Assembly (NCBI GenBank): GCA_016874975.1
Contig: VGSQ01000014.1
Span: 1 to 43,181 of the forward strand
Reading direction: 5' to 3'
DNA: 43,181 bases
DNA from: Deltaproteobacteria bacterium
Lineage (GTDB): Bacteria; Desulfobacterota; Desulfobaccia; Desulfobaccales; 0-14-0-80-60-11
The notes beneath the pieces are model-generated. The model searched no databases and was not told the origin of the DNA. It saw only the letters and a program-made list of their open reading frames with translations. Position 1 is the first letter of the stretch, and each line of letters starts with the position of its first letter. The position numbers and the translations under genes are program-made. Below are positions 2,658 to 9,129 of this stretch, piece after piece.

Positions 2658-2828
2658 TTAGCTGCCGGACAACTGGCTCTGGACGTTGGTGAACTTGGTG
2701 TTCAGCGCGGTGCCGATGCCGTAGATGGCGGCCATCACCGCCACCGCGATGCCGGCCACCAGCAGGCCGTATTCCACCGCGCTGGCGCCTTCCTCGTTCT
2801 GAAGAAAGGACTTCATTTTGGTGATCAT
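2658..2828 (-). CDS. flp: Flp-family type IVb pilin
   Basis: The 56-residue prepilin reads MITKMKSFLQNEEG followed by ASAVEYGLLVAGIAV, i.e. a short basic leader, Gly at -1, the G-x4-E-Y signature and a single long hydrophobic helix. This is the major subunit of Tad/Flp adhesion pili. ATG at 2828 is preferred because AAGGAGG lies 5 bases upstream. An in-frame start at 2861 would add residues unlike a prepilin leader and has no ribosome site. It is the first gene of the tad operon, 190 bases downstream of a c-di-GMP-I riboswitch. Confidence 0.93.
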   Translation of the reverse strand: MITKMKSFLQNEEGASAVEYGLLVAGIAVAVMAAIYGIGTALNTKFTNVQSQLSGS

Positions 2829-2962
2829 GGTTTCCTCCTTGAGTAGTCGGGGAAGTTTCACTGCTCTGCCAGAAACATGATTGCTTTCCGTACCCGCGCG
2901 GCTTCACCTCCTTGGGGGCGGCAACCGTTTCCGGTCTCCCCGGGGTGGCCCACCGAGTTCAC

Positions 2963-2996
2963 CAAAAGAAAGCCCTTGACTGGTTGGCTGCAAGGG
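2963..2996 (-). terminator. Terminator-like hairpin between riboswitch and flp (expression platform)
   Basis: On the minus strand CCCTTG and CAAGGG form a 6-bp stem with a 12-base loop, followed directly by CTTTCTTTT. It lies about 20 bases after the aptamer and 135 bases before the flp start. That is the right place for a transcription-termination expression platform. Which ligand state favours termination cannot be read from this alone. Confidence 0.6.
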
Positions 2997-3016
2997 ATGG
3001 TCCTTCCTCCGGCGTC

Positions 3017-3104
3017 CACTTCGGCAATCCCGCCGCCTTGGCCCGGACCCGGGCGTTAGGCCGGTGATTTTGCGTCCCACCCTTTCGGAGTGGTTTGCCT
3101 TTCT
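3017..3104 (-). promoter_or_regulatory. c-di-GMP-I (GEMM) riboswitch aptamer
   Basis: The minus strand shows the GEMM-I core in order. It has GGCAAACC, a P1b stem CCACTC/GGGTGG capped by a GAAA tetraloop, GGGACGCAAA, CCGGCCTAA, a second GC-rich arm, and a closing TTGCCGAAG that pairs with the opening GGCAA. The base before CAAAC is G, matching G20 of the Vibrio Vc2 aptamer that favours c-di-GMP; the 3',3'-cGAMP variants have A there. It sits in the 5' leader of the flp/tad operon, so c-di-GMP should control pilus expression. The direction, ON or OFF, is not determined. Confidence 0.92.
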
Positions 3105-3130
3105 CGGTGGACTCTTGTTATTTGCTCCCT

Positions 3131-3157
3131 TTATCGGCTTCTTTTCCCCAGCCTTTA
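3131..3157 (-). promoter_or_regulatory. Sigma-28 (FliA)-type promoter for the flp/tad operon
   Basis: The minus strand carries TAAAGGCT, an 11-base spacer, then GCCGATAA. The consensus is TAAAGTTT-N11-GCCGATAA, so the -10 is a perfect match and the -35 matches at six of eight positions. Transcription would begin about 15-20 bases before the riboswitch aptamer, which supports the assignment. Confidence 0.75.
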
Positions 3158-3361
3158 AAAATCGCCCGTTTGTCCCCGACGACTCGACCTTCAAGTTTTT
3201 CCCCGCGGGGTCGATGCAGATTAGGAAACGGCAACACTATTGATCACAGGTTGCGCTCAAGGGGCGGTCTTGTTGCCGCCGCAAACTTCAGCCTGCCCCC
3301 CATCAGGCTAACCGCCGGCGCCGCGGTTTGATCGCGGCTCGCCCTGAGAGGAGTCTCATCC
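3158..3361. promoter_or_regulatory. Divergent regulatory region with hairpin-rich leader of the AAA+ gene
   Basis: This is the part of the flp/AAA+ intergenic region read toward the plus-strand gene. Three successive hairpins occupy 3263-3338: GGCGG/CCGCC (loop 8), GCCTG/CAGGC (loop 8) and GCCGCG/CGCGGC (loop 7). They are followed by AGGAG at 3349-3353. No known riboswitch class was recognised and no clear sigma-70 promoter was found on the plus strand. Confidence 0.4.
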
Positions 3362-4678
3362 ATGCCTTCCCTGTCTCCGGCCATCCTTCAGGCCCTCGAG
3401 GCCAACGCCGAGGGGCTGCCCACCAGCCGGCCTCTCCCCCAATCTCTGTCGGAATTGGGTCTGCCGGAAATCTTTCTGGCCAATCTGACCCTGAAGCACT
3501 GCTTTTATCTGGACGTCTTCACCCTGAACGAACTGGGGGAGCGCCTCAAGCTCTCCACCACCATCCTCACCCAGCTCCTGGACTACCTGCGCAAAGAGAA
3601 ATACGTGGAGGTCCGGGGGCCGGACCCGCTGAAACCAGTGGCCAACCCTCTGGCCCTCACCAACCGCTTCGCCCTGACCGACGGCGGCAAGCGCCGGTCC
3701 GCCCAGCTCCTGGAGTACGACGCCTATGTGGGCCCGGCCCCCGTCTCCCTGGAGGACTACTGGCAGCAGGTGAGCCGCCAGAGCATCAAGCTCACTTCCA
3801 TCACCCCGGTACGGCTGCGCCAGGTCTTTGAGGGCCTGGTCATCTCCCCCGCCATGCTGGAGCAGCTGGGCCCCGCCTCGGTGAGCGGCAAGCCCCTGTT
3901 CCTCTACGGGCCGCCGGGCAACGGCAAGACCACCATCGCCCTGCGTCTGGGCCAGGTCTGGGACGACGCCATCCTCCTGCCCTATGCCCTCTACGTGGAA
4001 GGCCACGTCATCCGGATCTACGACGACATCAGCCATCAACCCCTGAGGGACCAGGGGGCCGACCCCGGCGACCGGCGCTGGCTCCGCTGCCGCCGGCCGG
4101 TGGTGTTGGTGGGCGGCGAACTCACCCTGCCCATGCTGGACCTGGCCTTCAATCCCACCCTCAAATATTACGAAGCCCCCCTGCAACTGAAAGCCAACAA
4201 CGGCATGTTCATCGTGGACGACTTCGGCCGCCAGCAGGTCGCCCCCCAGGAACTCCTGAACCGCTGGATCATCCCTCTGGAGAACCGTCAGGATTTCCTC
4301 TGCCTGCACACCGGCCAGAAATTCGCCATCCCCTTCGACCAGTTCCTGGTGTTCGCCACCAACCTGGAGCCCCGCACCCTGGTGGACGACGCCTTCCTGC
4401 GGCGCATTCGCTCCAAGGTGAAGGTGGACCACGTCACCCGGGAGCAGTTCCTGGAAATCTTCCGCCTGATGTGCGCCCACCACCGCATGGAATTTGTCCC
4501 CGAGATGGTGGAATATCTGCTCACCACCCACTATGAGCCCGCCGGACGCTCCTTCGACGCCTGCCACCCCCGGGACCTGCTGGAACAGATCATCGATCAC
4601 AGCGCCTTCCACGGCCTCACCCCCAGCCTCACCCGGGAAAACCTGGACCGGGCCTGCCGGGTCTATTTTGTACATTGA
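3362..4678 (+). CDS. AAA+ ATPase with N-terminal winged-helix-like region
   Basis: The 438-residue cytoplasmic protein has Walker A GPPGNGKTT at residues 183-191, a Walker-B-like IVDDFGRQ at 284-291, a later VFATNLEP sensor-1-like segment and RRIRSKV arginines that could be sensor/finger residues. Residues about 45-115 (FTLNELGERLKLSTTILTQLLDYL...) look like a winged helix. AGGAG 8 bases upstream supports the ATG. It is divergent from the flp/tad operon and shares its regulatory region, so a role linked to that pilus or its regulation is possible. The sequence does not show a substrate. It does not carry the secretion-ATPase features of CpaF/GspE. Confidence 0.85.
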   Translation: MPSLSPAILQALEANAEGLPTSRPLPQSLSELGLPEIFLANLTLKHCFYLDVFTLNELGERLKLSTTILTQLLDYLRKEKYVEVRGPDPLKPVANPLALTNRFALTDGGKRRSAQLLEYDAYVGPAPVSLEDYWQQVSRQSIKLTSITPVRLRQVFEGLVISPAMLEQLGPASVSGKPLFLYGPPGNGKTTIALRLGQVWDDAILLPYALYVEGHVIRIYDDISHQPLRDQGADPGDRRWLRCRRPVVLVGGELTLPMLDLAFNPTLKYYEAPLQLKANNGMFIVDDFGRQQVAPQELLNRWIIPLENRQDFLCLHTGQKFAIPFDQFLVFATNLEPRTLVDDAFLRRIRSKVKVDHVTREQFLEIFRLMCAHHRMEFVPEMVEYLLTTHYEPAGRSFDACHPRDLLEQIIDHSAFHGLTPSLTRENLDRACRVYFVH

Positions 4679-4800
4679 GGGCTGAGGCTTGGTGAGGGAG
4701 GAGGCCGGGGGCCGGCGGGCCCCTGCCCCCTCCCCCAACCCCATTAACAAAAATCCCCCCGGCTCTCAGATCGGACCTGGGAACCAGGGGGACCATGTAG

Positions 4801-4828
4801 GGTTCTGGGTTCTCGGTTTTGGGTTTTA
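4801..4828 (+). repeat. Short heptamer repeat GGTTYTN x4
   Basis: Four consecutive 7-mers (GGTTCTG, GGTTCTC, GGTTTTG, GGTTTTA), followed by GGTGTGC. This is the same unit family as the large inverted heptamer array at 13577-13748. Confidence 0.75.
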
Positions 4829-5022
4829 GGTGTGCGATACATGGCTGGCGTTACCAGGAAATGCGTGACCATCCAAACCCATTCCCGCAAAGGCGACGTA
4901 GGGTGCGCACCGCGCACCATTGCCTGGGCCTGGCGGCGGGCAGGGACGCCGGCCCCACCGCCCTTTTCATGTGTTATGGGTGGGCCAGCGGCCCATGCGC
5001 GACTGCTCTGAAAATGCCTCTC

Positions 5023-5070
5023 GTAGGGCGCGTCTTACGCGCCAAAGACGGTGCGTGAGACGCACCCTAT
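5023..5070 (+). repeat. GTAGGGCGCG...GCACCCTA palindromic repeat, copy in unit 1
   Basis: GTAGGGCGCGTCTTACGCGC is followed by GGTGCGTGAGACGCACCCTA, each half palindromic and the whole bounded by GTAGGG/CCCTA. Related short fragments occur at 4898-4920, 6510-6528, 18402-18420 and 41566-41590. Confidence 0.7.
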
Positions 5071-5109
5071 TTTATTGGTTTTGGGTGTTCCCCCGGTACA
5101 TGATTGGCT

Positions 5110-5161
5110 CGTTCCCAAGCTCCCGCTTGGGAACGCACTTGCCCCGAAGCTCCTGCTTCGG
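5110..5161 (+). repeat. GTTCCCAAGC palindromic element, copy 1
   Basis: CGTTCCCAAGC / GCTTGGGAACG form an 11-bp stem with a short loop. A second hairpin follows, CCGAAGC/GCTTCGG. At least six copies or partial copies occur in intergenic parts of the window. Confidence 0.8.
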
Positions 5162-5261
5162 ACTTGGCCTGGCGGCGGGCAGGGACGCCCGCCCCACCGG
5201 CCTTTTCATGTGTTATGGGTGGGCCCGCGGCCCATGCGCGACTGCTCTGAAAATGCCTCTC

Positions 5262-5309
5262 GTAGGGCGCGTCTTACGCGCCAAAGACGGTGCGTGAGAC
5301 GCACCCTAC
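5262..5309 (+). repeat. GTAGGGCGCG...GCACCCTAC palindromic repeat, copy in unit 2
   Basis: Second near-identical copy of the element at 5023-5070, carried by the second unit of the tandem duplication and ending in a complete CCCTAC. Confidence 0.7.
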
Positions 5310-5350
5310 ATTTTCATGGTTTTGGGTGTTCCCCCGGTACATGATTGGCT

Positions 5351-5403
5351 CGTTCCCAAGCTCCCGCTTGGGAACGCCATTGCCCCCGAAGCTCCTGCTT
5401 CGG
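5351..5403 (+). repeat. GTTCCCAAGC palindromic element, copy 2
   Basis: Same two-hairpin element as at 5110, with one extra base in the linker; it lies in the second tandem unit. Confidence 0.8.
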
Positions 5404-8318: not shown

Positions 8319-8708
8319 ATGAGTCGCGGCAAAACCAGCCTGGCCCTGATGTTCGTGTTTATCCCCCTGTTCTTCCTGGCCCTGGCTGTGGCGGAAAATT
8401 CCCAGGCTCAGGCTCAGGGGATCTGGCCCTGGACCTCTTACCGCCTGGTGGAGGAGAGCGACCTGGGACCCCTTTCCCTCAGGGACCTGGAAATCATGCG
8501 CAACGAAATCTATGCCCGCAAGGGCTGGATTTTCGCCCGGGCCGACCTGAACGGCTACTTCAATAGCCAACCCTGGTACCGGCCCGGCGGCCCCCCCTGG
8601 GACCGGGAGCGGGTCAACCGCATGGCGGAGGCCTCCCTTTCCCCCCTGGAGCGCCAGAATATCTCCCGCATCTCTTCTTATGAGCGATTCCGGCGCGGGG
8701 GCAGGTGA
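8319..8708 (+). CDS. Small exported YARHG-domain protein
   Basis: The 129-residue protein has a signal peptide (about 1-33, ALAVAENSQAQA) and then one YARHG domain: LRDLEIMRNEIYARKGWIF (about 57-75) followed by YFNSQPWY. YARHG domains are extracellular modules of unknown function, often attached to other secreted domains; here the domain stands alone. ATG at 8319 is chosen over one 15 bases upstream because AGGAGG lies 6 bases before it. A good sigma-70 promoter precedes it. The C-terminus is Arg/Gly-rich. It stands alone between repeat-rich spacers. Confidence 0.85.
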   Translation: MSRGKTSLALMFVFIPLFFLALAVAENSQAQAQGIWPWTSYRLVEESDLGPLSLRDLEIMRNEIYARKGWIFARADLNGYFNSQPWYRPGGPPWDRERVNRMAEASLSPLERQNISRISSYERFRRGGR

Positions 8709-8725
8709 GGGGGGGTGCAAAACCT

Positions 8726-8777
8726 CGTTCCCAAGCTCCCGCTTGGGAACGCACTTGCCCCGAAGCTCCTGCTTCGG
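8726..8777 (+). repeat. GTTCCCAAGC palindromic element, copy 4
   Basis: Identical two-hairpin layout to the copy at 5110-5161, located 17 bases after the YARHG gene. It could also act as a transcript end. Confidence 0.8.
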
Positions 8778-8974
8778 AAAGTGGTCACAGGGCGTGCCGC
8801 GCACCCCGAGGGCGGCGGCCGCGGGCCGCCCTATGACCTGCCCCTCACGGGGTTTTTTCTCTCCGGAGCTCGGTGCGCACCCTGCGCGACCGGTGGGTAA
8901 TGATAAGCCCACCGGGGGAGGGGGAATAAAGGAATTTTTTGACTGGTTCCAAGGATTCCACCGGTTTCCAAGTT

Positions 8975-9129
8975 TGATGGCCTCGTAAAAAGTCCATTCA
9001 CCCCCTCACCCCAGCCCTCTCCCCCAAGGGGGAGAGGGAGATAATGAGGCATATCAATCAGTTATCAATGGCAGCGAAAGCCACCTTTTGGGGATAGCAC
9101 GGCCTTTTTGACTTTTTACGATTCCATCA
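8975..9129 (+). mobile_element. 155-bp MITE, copy A
   Basis: Terminal inverted repeats of 20 bp (left TGATGGCCTCGTAAAAAGTC; the right end differs at two positions) enclose a non-coding core. The core has an 11-bp palindrome CCCTCTCCCCC/GGGGGAGAGGG. AGTT directly flanks both ends, consistent with a 4-bp target duplication. A copy with about five differences lies at 40352-40506. It has no coding capacity, so a transposase must act in trans. Confidence 0.88.

Follow-up and report, generated by a model that had tools for sequence, protein, structure and literature searches.

A sigma-28 promoter paired with a c-di-GMP-I riboswitch as the probable leader of a Tad pilus operon in a Desulfobaccales bacterium

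The stretch of DNA considered here (the window, 43,181 nucleotides long, contig C14 of a 3.34 Mb assembly in 217 contigs that is 94% complete) begins with a pilus operon led by a c-di-GMP riboswitch, and the question it raises is which sigma factor makes this leader and whether the cell has to be flagellated for that to happen. A first-pass annotation had proposed a flagellar sigma-28 promoter just upstream of the riboswitch and had added that the operon is available only in flagellate-stage cells. Our reading, to which we assign a probability of roughly 0.88, is that positions 3157 to 3131 would act as a sigma-28 (FliA) promoter and that the resulting RNA would be a two-input leader, answering to FliA/FlgM and to c-di-GMP, for a Tad operon that belongs to the FliA regulon family-wide, including those members that have lost the flagellum. 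What the DNA itself provides for this reading is the pair of promoter boxes, the riboswitch aptamer and the pilus operon, together with one full FliA and FlgM in the genome and a pattern of conservation with controls.

Two boxes can be read directly on the minus strand: the -35 element TAAAGGCT at 3157-3150 and, 11 nt past it, the -10 element GCCGATAA at 3138-3131. The E. coli FliA consensus is TAAAGTTT-N11-GCCGATAA, and measured against this reference the -10 matches at 8/8 positions and the -35 at 6/8, two positions of the latter departing from the consensus. The perfect -10 and correct spacing noted in the first-pass annotation are therefore borne out. T[AT]AAG is equally placed before the riboswitch-led Tad operons of relatives. 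From the -10 box to the c-di-GMP-I aptamer (3109-3020) there are 21 nt, in keeping with the earlier estimate of about 20 bases, and the observation of boxes and riboswitch together at this place is confirmed. Transcription would be expected to start near 3124.

The genes downstream all run in one direction on the minus strand and form by their Pfam matches the Tad/Flp operon that had been annotated as a Flp pilus operon: flp, a Flp/Fap major pilin of 56 aa (2658-2828; PF04964, 56.7 bits), a tadE-like minor pilin (2080-2493; PF07811, 54.6 bits), cpaB/rcpC (1237-2073; PF16976, 109.9 bits) and a tadZ/cpaE-like ATPase that is open at the contig edge (1-1197; AAA_31, 44.2 bits). The tad genes for motor and platform would be found past the edge of the contig. 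On the other side, the divergent neighbour at 3362-4678 on the plus strand encodes a 438-aa ATPase with weak, below cut-off matches to MoxR/Mg-chelatase-like families. Further into the window, 4800-5400 and 8700-9000 hold similar translated stretches that also occur on other contigs of the same genome and represent a dispersed repeat.

The genome encodes the sigma factor that such a promoter would need. A single protein exceeds the TIGR02479 family cut-off (269.2 bits against 189.6), its gene stands in the order flhA-flhF-flhG-fliA, and flagellin, rod genes, FlhA and FlgM are present as well, which answers the proposed check for fliA and flagellar genes. Across the 3.34 Mb, TAAA-N15-GCCGATAA occurs exactly four times, and TAAAG-N14/15-GCCGATA is found six times where about 0.4 would be expected from composition and where the reversed pattern gives two. 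Five of the six exact sites precede flagellin, flgM, a MotA-like gene, the window operon and a second Flp gene (flagellin and FlgM identified by Pfam, the MotA-like gene by eye and the second Flp gene by PF04964), so that the same boxes are found before known FliA targets of the genome, fliC and flgM; the sixth, on contig C37, falls within an ORF. Once one or two mismatches are allowed, reversing the pattern yields roughly as many sites (163 vs 152), so the genome-wide claim uses exact sites only. The second Flp pilin gene (G000:C42:23919-24125) lies shortly downstream of its exact sigma-28 site and is not led by a riboswitch; a similarly close site is seen at a Flp gene in eight relatives.

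The aptamer matches Rfam RF01051 with 77.4 bits, over the gathering score of 35, and has the consensus fold, in agreement with the riboswitch that had been annotated. The genome holds two such riboswitches in total; the second, on contig C28, precedes a TadE-like gene and has a weaker site, TCAAG-N15-GCCGAAA, with two mismatches of 12. In the window the 5' strand GUCCACCGAG (3103-3112, minus) forms the 5' side of P1 and is also complementary to a downstream anti-P1 element, ACUCGGUGGGCCA (2946-2958, minus), which emerged from an alignment of 18 flp leaders together with a duplex test. Most of the family's flp leaders in this alignment share a conserved CUCGGUG-type sequence; the element is of the type CUCGGUGRRCC, and genera g3 and g8 have a different sequence that is still complementary to the aptamer 5' strand. 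The duplex is predicted at -19.8 kcal/mol in the window, where 0/100 dinucleotide shuffles are as strong, and at -18 to -26 kcal/mol in the flp leaders, where it beats at least 99/100 shuffles in 7/18 and at least 95/100 in 15/18. Such pairing would compete with P1 and is likely the switch, although we take these predictions as a lead and not as proof. Folding with P1 forced and unforced predicted changes in ribosome-site accessibility whose sign was not consistent across the 18 flp leaders.

A terminator-like hairpin, CCCTTG..CAAGGG (2973-2996, minus), followed by CTTTCTTTT (2972-2964), was recognized by eye and folding; it is not kept in all relatives and is absent from the terminator-scan output. 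In place of the anti-P1 pairing, TadE-type leaders show strong terminator-like hairpins by eye. A strong Shine-Dalgarno-like AAGGAGGTGA lies at 2904-2913 (minus), well upstream of the flp start, and such a stretch is found in most of the 18 flp leaders with the start codon missing at the normal distance. In nine leader loci, no other Rfam family reached a score above its gathering threshold.

Conservation of the promoter in relatives was another check proposed for the locus. The RF01051 search gave 122 matches in 36/59 genomes, our own included, and we examined 97 of these, namely all 81 of the same family, 8/9 of the sister family, plus the top match in each of eight phylum-level genomes, leaving out 24 phylum-level matches and one of G028. 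A riboswitch was called Tad-linked when Flp, TadE or CpaB was found at most 1.8 kb downstream (phmmer E<1e-3), and a site was accepted with at most two mismatches of 12 within 68 nt. By these definitions a sigma-28 site is present at 27/28 Tad-linked riboswitches vs 7/69 others (Fisher p = 1.8e-16, with relatives that are not independent and ancestry uncorrected), and in 1/96 upstream control windows; the lone Tad-linked riboswitch without a site is the second of two tandem aptamers. Riboswitches with GCC for GGC, which stand before other genes, showed no comparable site by eye.

The same picture is obtained starting from the pilin genes. There were 83 Flp_Fap matches, 81 of them with upstream DNA, and a site, here at most one mismatch of 12 within 420 nt, was found at 19/19 riboswitch-led Flp genes (14 exact) and at 17/62 others (6 exact), with 1/81 for the reversed and 2/81 for the reverse-complement control. 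No site at this threshold was found at 45/81 Flp genes, a set that includes non-first operon genes and all 10 Flp genes from outside the order. Counted by genome, 25 of the 27 genomes of the order with a Flp match have a site at a Flp gene; in the other two, G025 and G028, an exact site stands ahead of a riboswitch-led TadE gene that lies upstream of the Flp gene on its contig. As positive controls, 13/24 flagellin genes and 16/28 flgM matches have the site (reversed 0/24 and 0/28). In G009 and G019 (84% complete) the site is present and FliA is not over the cut-off. The promoter-riboswitch pair is thus kept; of the refuting outcomes that the first-pass annotation had named, neither a genome lacking fliA nor a lack of conservation came about. 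The FliA-type reading of the boxes, with exact sites above chance and conservation measured against controls, is well supported.

The restriction to flagellate-stage cells fared differently. Of 26 genomes of the order scanned for flagellin (PF00669), rod (PF00460) and FlhA (PF00771), 13 have none of the three; they fall in the same family (G002, G004, G007, G008, G010, G013, G014, G017) and in the sister family (G022, G023, G024, G026, G027). Desulfobacca acetoxidans is one of these 13, and its strain ASRB2 is described as non-motile (PMC3156406). Yet FlgM is found in all 13 and FliA over the cut-off in 12, the FliA of G026 (183.9 bits) being truncated where its contig stops. In the 12 fliA neighbourhoods of flagella-less genomes, FliA is 70-76% identical to that of our genome over 227 residues; flhG lies beside fliA in 11/12, flhA and flhF in 0/12, and a conserved gene that looks adenine-deaminase-like by eye follows fliA in 8/12, some of these stretches being short. 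Flp genes are present in 11 of the flagella-less genomes, and each of the 11 retains a site (at most one mismatch) at one of them, an exact one in eight cases; the flgM of several members also has a site, for example in G004, G007, G008, G022, G024 and G026. Because half of the order members scanned are without flagella and keep FliA, FlgM and the site, availability only in flagellate-stage cells is not general. We would replace it by control through FliA/FlgM, whether or not the cell has a flagellum. FlgM is normally released by export through the flagellum, so where the flagellum is lost it would have to be released by another signal.

Outside the order, we scanned contigs for GCCGATA-N14..40-GGCAAAC-N10..30-GGACGCAAA, which gave at least 118 stretches, 115 with enough upstream DNA. 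Among the matches listed, T[AT]AAG stands at a gap of 14 or 15 exactly in 46/115 and with at least four of five positions in 78/115, and exact occurrences at the other gaps from 3 to 35 amount to four at gap 3, one at gap 29 and one at gap 35. These matches include Desulfobacterales, Nitrospira, Rubrobacter, Thiobacillus, Armatimonadota and Bacillota. Since the aptamers end in GCCGAA, GCCGATA could also have been the tail of a tandem aptamer, but this was rejected for most loci, where the -35 box stands at the right gap; 37/115 loci among the matches listed score at most three of five at gaps 14/15, and these may reflect coincidence or a different sort of element. The 79 ORFs downstream of the 78 sigma-28-positive loci listed include rod/hook (6), FlgM (5), N-methyl pilin (5), DUF1631 (4), TadE (3) and Flp (2) families by Pfam, counts that are rough because the gene picking was mechanical. 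At L178, L181, L182 and L198, from Thiobacillus and other beta-proteobacterial sources, the sigma-28 box and c-di-GMP-I riboswitch stand before similar proteins, which probably account for the four DUF1631 matches. Within the order, a cluster of c-di-GMP-I riboswitches at G024:C1:900280-908886 fits the seven-riboswitch array of Desulfobacca acetoxidans published in a tandem-riboswitch study (PMC9481103).

Whether the boxes could be a chance match, with a housekeeping promoter driving the operon, deserves consideration: the -35 matches at 6/8 positions, short two-box patterns can arise by chance, and one exact site, that of C37, lies inside an ORF. However, no sigma-70-like promoter was found in the scanned region from 2800 to 3362, and a site present in nearly every Tad-linked riboswitch leader and in a single control window argues against coincidence. 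On the genome-wide counts and controls we rejected a chance match of the boxes, and we regard this explanation as highly improbable. It is also quite improbable that the promoter is real but that the aptamer senses cGAMP in place of c-di-GMP, because the window aptamer appears to have a G at what we take to be nucleotide 20, within AAAGGCAAAC. The change A20G turns the selectivity of a cGAMP aptamer to c-di-GMP (PMC6456294), even if cGAMP variants are found in Geobacter (PMC6456294) and one has been reported in Desulfobacca acetoxidans (PMC9481103).

A different concern is that other targets account for the retention of FliA and FlgM in relatives without flagella, and that the sites at Flp genes of these relatives are remnants. 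The sigma-28 regulon of some bacteria, such as Bdellovibrio, holds many other genes (PMC3627812), and G026 and G027 keep FliA and FlgM without any Flp match. Against this stands the retention of the site in every flagella-less genome with Flp genes, mostly with exact boxes, and we consider persistence for other targets possible but rather unlikely. We find it somewhat more probable than not that, in this Desulfobaccales-like order, FliA and FlgM form a pilus regulator outliving the flagellum: flagellin, rod and the FlhA export gate would have been lost, FliA with its neighbouring flhG and FlgM kept, FliA boxes maintained at Flp genes, partly together with a c-di-GMP riboswitch, and FlgM then released by another signal. 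The same degree of confidence applies to the sigma-28 promoter and c-di-GMP-I riboswitch being a recurring two-input module in many phyla.

The reading that we favour for the window, a FliA promoter serving a two-input leader, would operate as follows. FliA would start a transcript near 3124 from the promoter at 3157-3131, and the c-di-GMP-I aptamer would open the RNA ahead of flp-tadE-cpaB-tadZ, so that the operon would receive two inputs. FliA, held by its anti-sigma factor FlgM, would decide whether the leader is made, and c-di-GMP, via alternative pairing of the aptamer 5' strand, would decide operon expression. The FliA input would place the Tad pilus operon in the FliA regulon of the family, flagellum-losers included. 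FliA binding, the start site and the switch mechanism are what we infer here from sequence and folding.

Streptomyces WhiG, with its anti-sigma RsiG, is likewise a sigma factor of the FliA family that is retained in the absence of flagella and linked to c-di-GMP, although there c-di-GMP targets the anti-sigma protein instead of an RNA, and the regulated genes are sporulation genes. For FliA control of Flp pili there is an independent precedent. In Bdellovibrio bacteriovorus and B. exovorus a Flp/Tad operon is, as in the window, driven by FliA from a sigma-28 promoter whose boxes and spacing agree with those here, TTAAG-N16-CCGATA (PMC5430801, PMC3627812); in contrast to the window, the account of this operon in PMC5430801 mentions no riboswitch, and FliA there runs the predatory attack phase in flagellated cells. 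The Bdellovibrio merRNA resembles the window in being a c-di-GMP riboswitch RNA in a host whose swimming-phase programme is FliA-driven, but it has no conserved gene behind it and is proposed to be a c-di-GMP store, and the table in PMC3627812 marks no FliA promoter for it. In Clostridioides difficile the c-di-GMP-I riboswitch Cd1 before flgB likewise controls a surface appendage operon (PMC7438776, PMC9262584), with the difference that the promoter is of the SigA type (PMC7438776), the operon is flagellar and the riboswitch is a transcriptional OFF-switch (PMC9262584). Geobacter GEMM-I riboswitches also precede pilus genes but belong to the cGAMP-specific GEMM-Ib subclass, that of pilM being described as an ON-switch (PMC6456294, PMC9262584). 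In D. vulgaris, fliA and flp mutants have been made separately (PMC3944678), and work on degenerating flagella in Actinobacteria touches on FlgM and FliA only briefly (PMC10746217). Our search of the open-access literature, mostly at the level of titles and abstracts, gave no paper on the pairing of sigma-28 with a cis c-di-GMP riboswitch and, among the matches listed, none on FliA/FlgM being kept for pili without flagella.

FliA/FlgM and c-di-GMP are two classic switches between swimming and attachment, and in this family one leader RNA would join them, so one short DNA segment may suffice to test the logic of the transition. Relatives without flagella raise the further question of what frees FliA from FlgM without flagellar export, and one of these relatives, Desulfobacca acetoxidans, is available in culture as a non-motile type strain whose genome is complete.
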